Below, piece after piece: positions 26,554 through 27,550 of a stretch of 37,591 bases of DNA. Location: positions 1-37,591 of IMG/VR virus record IMGVR_UViG_3300010401_000059. The stretch is one strand, 5' to 3'. A model generated the notes under the pieces. It saw nothing but the letters and a program-made list of their open reading frames with translations, was not told where the DNA came from and made no database searches. The translations under genes were made by a program, and so were the position numbers. Positions within the stretch are counted from its first letter, which is position 1. Every line of letters begins with the position of its first letter. This DNA comes from a virus.

Positions 26554-26610
26554 TTAAGAATATTATTGTTAGTGTAACATTCAAACCCATATTACAATAG
26601 ACGCGATTTA

Positions 26611-26664
26611 TGGCCAATTAAAGTTGAGACGTCCAGCTATTAGCTAATAACTGAAAATTGGCCA
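26611..26664. promoter_or_regulatory. Inverted repeat around a palindrome in a divergent intergenic region
   Basis: Perfect 9-bp arms TGGCCAATT (26611-26619) and AATTGGCCA (26656-26664). Between them is a perfect 12-bp palindrome TATTAGCTAATA (26638-26649). It lies between the portal gene (leftward) and a small-gene/RNA operon (rightward), so it may be an operator or a leader hairpin of the latter. Confidence 0.5.
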
Positions 26665-26695
26665 CCATTTTGTTAAGCTCAACAATAAGGTTTGC

Positions 26696-26866: not shown

Positions 26867-27058
26867 ATGACCAGTGCAGAATTTCAAATGAAATACCATG
26901 ACTACGCAACTTCTGATTCAATGCAAGCTTTAAGTGACTCAATCAAAATCAATGAAAAATTAACAGACGGTAAATGCGTGCCTGTTAAAATTGGCAATCA
27001 ATATTGTTTAATGCTCGATACGGCAGCAGCATTTTTAAAAGAGAATGATATTATATAA
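26867..27058 (+). CDS. Hypothetical protein (63 aa)
   Basis: Reads MTSAEFQMKYHDYATSDSMQ, then SIKINEKLTDGKCVPVKIGN and MLDTAAAFLKENDII. AAGG site 7 bases upstream. A helix followed by a short beta element. Stop at 27058 is only 6 bases before the first tRNA-like element, so both are likely on one transcript. Confidence 0.55.
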   Translation: MTSAEFQMKYHDYATSDSMQALSDSIKINEKLTDGKCVPVKIGNQYCLMLDTAAAFLKENDII

Positions 27059-27064
27059 TCGCAT

Positions 27065-27151
27065 GGCAATCGCTGCGTAGTGAGACGCATGGGAAAACGC
27101 ACTGGATACTTTGGAAACCTCCGTGTGCCAGTTCGATTCTGGCCGATTGCC
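27065..27151 (+). ncRNA. tRNA-like element 1 (87 nt)
   Basis: The ends form a perfect 8-bp acceptor-like helix (GGCAATCG 27065-27072 with CGATTGCC 27144-27151). The T arm is canonical: stem GCCAG/CTGGC with 7-base loop TTCGATT (27127-27143). The D-like arm is TGCGT/ACGCA (27074-27089) but lacks the GG pair. No 5-bp, 7-base-loop anticodon arm can be drawn. Instead GCAC-t-GGA pairs TCC-GTGT over a 13-base loop. It therefore looks like a tRNA mimic or decayed tRNA, not a decoding tRNA. No encoded CCA. Confidence 0.6.
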
Positions 27152-27200
27152 TCTTGGTATCTATAAATACATCTTTTATGTTGGTATCTTTACATACTAT

Positions 27201-27327
27201 GACAATAGCGGTGTGGATAGTGACACACGAGTCGTCCGACCTTTGACTGTCGAATTCCTTGGAGTGTCGGCCACTTACTAGTGGTGAGGCCTTGAATTCA
27301 TAGCCGGTGCAATTCCGGCCTATTGTC
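27201..27327 (+). ncRNA. tRNA-like element 2 (127 nt)
   Basis: Same plan as element 1. Perfect 8-bp end helix GACAATAG (27201-27208) with CTATTGTC (27320-27327). D-like arm GTGTG/CACAC with a loop containing TAGTGA as in element 1. T-like arm GCCGG-TGCAATT-CCGGC (27303-27319). In between, about 70 bases form other hairpins, including CCACT-TACT-AGTGG and paired GAATTC sites (27252, 27294), rather than a normal anticodon arm. The 67-aa gene starts 20 bases downstream. Confidence 0.55.
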
Positions 27328-27346: not shown

Positions 27347-27550
27347 ATGATTGTAGAAGTTTTCGCTTCATGTGATGAAAATGAATATTATTCACGCAAT
27401 GGGATCAATGTAAAAGTCAATAGATGCCTTGGGCAACCTGAAGTGGAAATAATATTTGTAGATGATTCAGAAAAACAATTGTTTAGCGCTTCTATGGAAT
27501 GGAAACAATTAAAAAAAATAATTGAAAGATTAGATGATATTTTTAAATAA
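27347..27550 (+). CDS. Hypothetical protein (67 aa)
   Basis: Reads MIVEVFASCDENEYYSRNGI, a beta-hairpin centre (VKVNRCLGQPEVEIIFVDD) and a helical end (EWKQLKKIIERLDDIF). AAGGA lies 7-8 bases before ATG. Its end overlaps the convergent terminase gene by 8 bases. Not recognised. Confidence 0.6.
   Translation: MIVEVFASCDENEYYSRNGINVKVNRCLGQPEVEIIFVDDSEKQLFSASMEWKQLKKIIERLDDIFK

Follow-up and report, generated by a model that had tools for sequence, protein, structure and literature searches.

A phage family of putative noncoding RNAs combining a tRNA-like scaffold with a hypervariable insert in the place of the anticodon arm

Phages carry a family of elements in which a paired scaffold with fixed loops encloses variable, modular inserts with helices of their own, and some of which lie in tRNA arrays, always oriented like the tRNA genes around them. 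Judged from their sequences, both the family and its design would be categorically new, with a predicted fold that is clearly tRNA-like. The reading that we favor, with a probability of about 0.55, is that the scaffold serves to display a variable RNA that would act in trans. The element from which the family was traced, element 2, is located between two small plus-strand ORFs of the window (the whole stretch of DNA analyzed, a 37.6-kb IMG/VR virus record that encodes a terminase, a P22-like portal and a YqaJ-type exonuclease). Two covariance models were used: R1, which includes element 2, and R2, which was derived from 41 elements, none of them from the window. The features of this region are the following.

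26867-27058, plus strand: upstream ORF of 63 aa in the same small plus-strand cluster; no family match
27065-27151, plus strand: element 1, divergent member with the end helix GGCAATCG/CGATTGCC and a short insert; 39.1 bits with R1 and 40.1 bits with R2
27195-27200, plus strand: AU-rich leader TACTAT, immediately 5' of element 2 (family leader [AG]TTTA[TC])
27201-27327, plus strand: element 2, whole; putative noncoding tRNA-like RNA
27201-27208, plus strand: 5' strand of the end helix, GACAATAG, 8 bp with 27320-27327 in the MFE fold; the acceptor pairs covary family-wide
27209-27210, plus strand: linker CG, equivalent to tRNA positions 8/9; CG in 83/96 elements of the family
27211-27228, plus strand: D-like arm GTGTG-GATAGTGA-CACAC, which includes TAGTGA (family loop GACAG[TC]GA)
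27229-27300, plus strand: hypervariable insert of 72 nt that replaces the anticodon and variable arms (MFE fold)
27301-27302, plus strand: linker TA; NA in 95/96 elements of the family
27303-27319, plus strand: T arm GCCGG-TGCAATT-CCGGC, from the fold and family conservation
27320-27327, plus strand: 3' strand of the end helix, CTATTGTC; CCA is not encoded and TCTT follows
27347-27550, plus strand: downstream ORF of 67 aa, preceded by AAGGAAA; no family match

The 8-bp helix, the D-like arm with TAGTGA and the T arm described for element 2 in the original prediction were all located at these positions, and the MFE fold agreed with them. Without any constraint, this fold was exactly the proposed structure, with the end helix, the D-like arm, two insert hairpins and the T arm. 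Its energy was -46.1 kcal/mol (z -3.05), and only 3 of 200 shuffled sequences folded as well. The insert had been described as about 70 bases with hairpins. Its length of 72 nt and its two hairpins (an AGTC/GACT-type hairpin and a long one with closing GAATTC/GAATTC in the MFE fold; z of about -1.9 for the insert alone) bear this out, but the description understated a hypervariable, element-specific domain that spans 29-252 nt across the family.

A search with a 25-position pattern taken from the 3' end of element 2 (T arm and end helix) detected at least 49 matching stretches in IMG/VR, against an estimate of fewer than about one by chance, and nearly all of them had a fitting 5' half 60-190 nt upstream. 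At least 55 matches were obtained with a pattern for the 5' half, and at least 120 when only the T arm was specified and the end helix was left free. The structure scan of the matched DNA yielded at least about 98 distinct elements on about 90 contigs, a sample that the search patterns skew toward TGCAATT and GACAG[TC]GA loops. About 20 more were added by the covariance model at loci missed by the strict scan, for a total of over 110. Building such a model and searching phage genomes was the check proposed originally, and it returned homologues and covariation in abundance. The selected tRNA-like RNA family that had been suspected, as opposed to a chance resemblance, is thus supported by these elements and their covariation, and tandem copies recur in other phages.

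Within the window, R2 reported element 2 (27201-27327; 78.7 bits, E 5e-21), element 1 (27065-27151; 40.1 bits, E 9e-10) and no further site; the E-values are rough owing to a short calibration. Hence both window elements were recovered as members of the family as we define it, that is, by the 18 scaffold pairs, the D loop GACAG[TC]GA, the T loop TGCAATT and the CG and NA linkers. Of the two, described originally as having the same design, element 1 has diverged: its arms are GCGT-AGTGAG-ACGC (D) and GCCAG-TTCGATT-CTGGC (T), so that the D loop is shorter and the T loop is the canonical TTCGATT. The spacer between both elements (27154-27189) is AT-rich and holds the direct repeat TTGGTATCT, at 27154 and 27181. 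An inverted repeat, GGCCAATT..AATTGGCC, was observed at 26609-26668, 5' of the small plus-strand genes, followed by CACCATTTTG, which resembles an upstream motif seen in other phages.

With R1, one to five copies per record were detected in 35 of 37 phage records. L006, a close relative of the window phage by its terminase, carried a very similar element and a variant, and R1 found no element in two other relatives, L003 and L007. The GC content of the carriers ranged from 29 to 64%. In species genomes the elements were rare: the D-arm pattern matched four MAG contigs, and R2 detected one element in a Legionellales chromosome (G171:C1:1741112-1741305), at a locus identical across 3 kb to the IMG/VR prophage L125. 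No element was found by R1 in 12 GenBank phage records, 11 of them P22-portal relatives, and a search of plasmids yielded none. Blastn of GenBank phages with the window and the consensus halves gave only chance-like matches, within the limits of short-query BLAST.

The pairing of the scaffold was analyzed in 42 aligned elements. In this set, 98.9% of the cells were paired, 16 of the 18 pairs had two-sided changes and the covariation was 0.568, compared with 0.172 after shuffling. In the 41 elements without the window, the paired cells were again 98.9%, the two-sided changes reached 17 of 18 pairs and the covariation was 0.604 against 0.176. The original statement that pairing is kept while bases change therefore extends well beyond the window. 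Since the scans and the scanner favored paired elements, the end helix was also tested in a less biased way, by anchoring on the D and T hairpins alone and comparing the 8-mers that flank them. Among the unusual end helices, taken as all those that depart from the common G[AG]CAAT type, 43 of 50 paired at 7 or 8 of the 8 positions, whereas the cross-control, in which the ends of different elements were paired, reached 11.7%. The sequence of the end helix is nearly free across the family, yet it is paired.

The loops and linkers, by contrast with the free end helix, were nearly invariant. The D loop was GACAGTGA in 79 of 96 elements and the T loop TGCAATT in 93 of 96, figures in which the loops are partly fixed by the search patterns. 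The discriminator base varied, and ACCA was encoded in only 5 of 96 elements; because the end-helix sequence and this base vary and CCA is rarely encoded, aminoacylation seems unlikely. One variant (L237:101-202) combines the standard T loop TTCGACT with the D loop CACGGTGA, which has the GG of standard tRNAs. The few T/D loop variants fit a contact between both loops in which position 18 would change with position 55. Docking of the D loop on the T loop would probably produce a tRNA elbow, a reading drawn from loop conservation and these few co-varying variants.

The inserts followed a different pattern. No motif beyond those of shuffled sequences was common to 87 non-redundant inserts, subfamilies apart, and copies within the same genome had no 10-mer in common in any of the seven cases compared (7/7), their inserts being unrelated. 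Within subfamilies, two-sided changes were detected. In the six elements of the F1 subfamily they affected 10 of 21 pairs, including 4 of the 5 pairs of an H-type pseudoknot helix. The six-pair helix adjoining the T arm reads AGCTAG/CTAGCT in one member of the pair L059 and L174 and AGTCCA/TGGACT in its partner, and similar compensatory helix changes were found between L022 and L077 and among L030, L055 and L084. Judged by these changes, the small insert subfamilies show selection on the predicted RNA folding. The MFE of the inserts was on average no stronger than that of random stretches from the same contigs, so many inserts may fold only loosely, and pseudoknots or weak folds may dominate. 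The inserts showed no appreciable excess of sequence antisense to their own flanks (longest match 9.6 vs 9.1 nt).

Additionally, inserts or their parts were found in other arrangements. The F1 core was also present in an unrelated high-GC phage, where it lies between two genes and has no scaffold around it (L256:3855-3917). This lone domain contains CCCC..GGGG, the pseudoknot and CCACAAGCGCTCTCGAACGATACGAG, adjoins a terminator-like hairpin with a T run, and had no match in Rfam. The insert of L056:3056-3249 (L244:201-394) contains a 119-nt tRNA-like sequence (L244:249-367; 36 bits with the Rfam tRNA model), which has an internal insertion of its own. From the lone F1 domain and this tRNA-like insert, the insert appears to be a module that can be exchanged. 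Hairpins resembling a T arm, with TTCRA loops, were seen in the inserts of L016, L057, L139 and L146. Two high-GC carriers, L095 and L191, have related and much longer inserts of about 240-250 nt, the end-helix/T-arm register of L191 being provisional.

An element may stand alone, be paired with another in tandem or be placed among tRNA genes, separated from them by 3-12 nt, as in the arrays Thr-Asn-element-Gln (L244), Tyr-element-element-Lys (L253) and Pro-element-Met (L054). A tRNA gene was located within 300 nt for 14 of 98 elements, on the same strand in all 14. No gene family travelling with the elements and no constant partner gene was found, and a search for relatives of the 67-aa protein downstream of element 2 yielded none. 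In low-GC carriers, [AG]TTTA[TC] usually precedes the element, even directly after a tRNA or another element. The leader GGGAAAATAGGCCACCAGTTTAT was considered as a promoter of a single-subunit RNA polymerase; PF00940 matched 0 of 35 records, and a control search was equally silent. A further upstream repeat, (G)GGAAAATAGGCCACCAGTTTAT, was observed at L047:4352, L084:3240, L077:73, L073:8462, L024:6726 and L074:1143. It precedes several elements and other non-coding spots of the same phages, and could be a promoter or a processing signal.

Known RNA classes were also compared. ARAGORN called no element a tRNA, and no tRNA or tmRNA was reported at element 2. None of the 4227 Rfam families matched the window at the gathering score. 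At a permissive threshold, the only matches were tRNA-Sec (RF01852) at element 1, with 20.5 bits for a cut-off of 47, and a chance-level snoRNA match; on 20 loci, Rfam matched only true tRNAs and one insert. A tRNA is recognized by a 7-bp acceptor, a D arm, an anticodon arm with a 7-nt loop and a T arm. The elements resemble the canonical bacterial tRNA (RF00005) in the end helix stacked on a 5-bp T arm with a 7-nt loop, the D arm, the two-nt linkers and the place in tRNA arrays. They differ from it in the 8-bp end helix of free sequence, the hypervariable insert with no anticodon arm, the D loop GACAG[TC]GA, the T loop TGCAATT, the rarely encoded CCA and the absence of an ARAGORN or Rfam match. 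With tRNA-Sec, which is recognized by its 8+5 acceptor domain and UCA anticodon and was the best Rfam match of element 1, they share an 8-bp acceptor and a 5-bp T stem, but they lack an anticodon arm and the Sec-type long variable arm, and element 2 does not match. Bacterial Y RNA (YrlA) carries its tRNA-like module internally, and its ends pair into the Ro-binding stem. The elements are like YrlA and other tRNA-mimicking noncoding RNAs in their putative noncoding nature and tRNA-like module, and unlike YrlA in that the ends themselves are tRNA-like; no Rfam match was obtained. In the engineered "tRNA scaffold," a foreign RNA occupies the place of the anticodon arm and the tRNA shell protects it. 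Both carry an RNA passenger at that place inside a tRNA shell, but the engineered form is man-made from a real tRNA, whereas the phage elements are natural and have their own loops and a free end helix. Such a scaffold has been used in E. coli co-expression work (PMC3753655). No description of the family was found in the literature covered, that is, open-licence papers.

These comparisons bear on several other explanations. The elements might be degenerate or intron-bearing phage tRNAs, in which the anticodon arm of an ordinary gene was lost or interrupted; the tRNA-like ends, the same-strand place in tRNA arrays and the insert at L244:249-367 that scores as a tRNA in Rfam would agree with this. 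The explanation is nevertheless very improbable: ARAGORN calls none of the elements, they have an 8-bp end helix and no anticodon arm, their non-tRNA D and T loops are conserved over more than 100 elements, and compensatory changes indicate live selection and not decay. The shared non-tRNA consensus contradicts it, and we consider it largely refuted on these grounds. A tmRNA-like function, in which a tRNA-like domain with an mRNA-like insert would serve in ribosome rescue or its inhibition, has the same plan of tRNA-like ends and a large insert replacing the anticodon arm. However, ARAGORN detected no tmRNA and the Rfam tmRNA models were unmatched, the elements have a real D stem, no tag frame and no conserved acceptor identity (with the end-helix sequence free, any alanine identity is free too), and their inserts of 29-252 nt lack a common structure and are as short as 29 nt. 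Moreover, no reading frame is kept, the stop density being 6.8% for the ATG frame and 5.3% and 7.3% for the remaining two, and this function is regarded as extremely doubtful. A conserved short peptide, M-A-I-A-A-W-T-V, read from ATG-GCA-ATC-GCG-GCG-TGG-ACA-GTG in the 5' half, was also considered. ATG stands at that place in 58 of 98 elements, but it is absent in 40 of 98, in-frame stops are not depleted and changes in the D stem alter residues while keeping the pairing; the peptide was refuted on sequence grounds and has practically no chance of being real.

An element acting in cis, as a leader or intercistronic control of the translation or stability of the next small phage gene, would explain why most elements lie just 5' of a Shine-Dalgarno-like sequence and a start codon, and why two small ORFs flank element 2 in the window. 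The downstream gene is not constant, though, the median distance to the next ORF of at least 80 aa is about 270 nt, and elements are also found between tRNA genes and in tandem, so that control in cis is unlikely. The inverted repeats might also matter as DNA, as a folded single-strand site for recombination, packaging or replication; the combination of conserved ends and swappable contents is reminiscent of cassette recombination sites, and one insert domain (F1) occurs in two contexts. Against such a site stand the common G-U pairs (about 48 cells) and the rarity of the A-C mismatches (about 6 cells) that folding of the opposite strand would produce, although the scanner favors G-U, the shared strand of the neighboring tRNA genes (14/14) and the loops and linkers of tRNA type, which make it quite unlikely.

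In the display-scaffold reading that we prefer, element 2 would encode a noncoding RNA belonging to a family specific to phages. The ends of the RNA are predicted to fold as the outer half of a tRNA, with a 13-bp coaxial stack of end helix and T arm plus the D arm, and a self-folding, rapidly diversifying RNA domain would occupy the place of the anticodon arm. The RNA would most likely be transcribed together with the neighboring small genes or tRNA genes. From what is known of tRNA biology, we infer that it may be excised by the tRNA-maturation enzymes, RNase P and the 3' tRNA nucleases, and that the tRNA-like shell would stabilize it and protect its ends. The shell would then be a general-purpose scaffold offering the insert to a target of the host or of a rival phage. 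The variability of the insert suggests that it may be the working part, under pressure to change as if facing host or rival factors; it would act in trans, and a part in the conflict between phage and host, perhaps as a decoy or an antagonist, is a guess. The fuller proposal, that a tRNA-shaped shell displays fast-evolving RNA effectors against host or rival-phage factors and that these conflict RNAs mature via the tRNA pathway, is put forward tentatively.

A structured RNA family of more than 100 members, with several copies per phage, is described here that is absent from Rfam and was not detected in the GenBank phages sampled; it would have been overlooked because the inserts keep tRNA and RNA finders from recognizing it. 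As far as searched, no natural precedent was found for a fixed tRNA-like shell with free ends and a hypervariable passenger. The pseudoknotted F1 domain, present in and out of the scaffold, may represent a second new RNA motif. The Legionellales prophage would be a concrete test bed for the role of a phage RNA, and not a protein, in conflict with the host, and for what the tRNA-processing enzymes accept.
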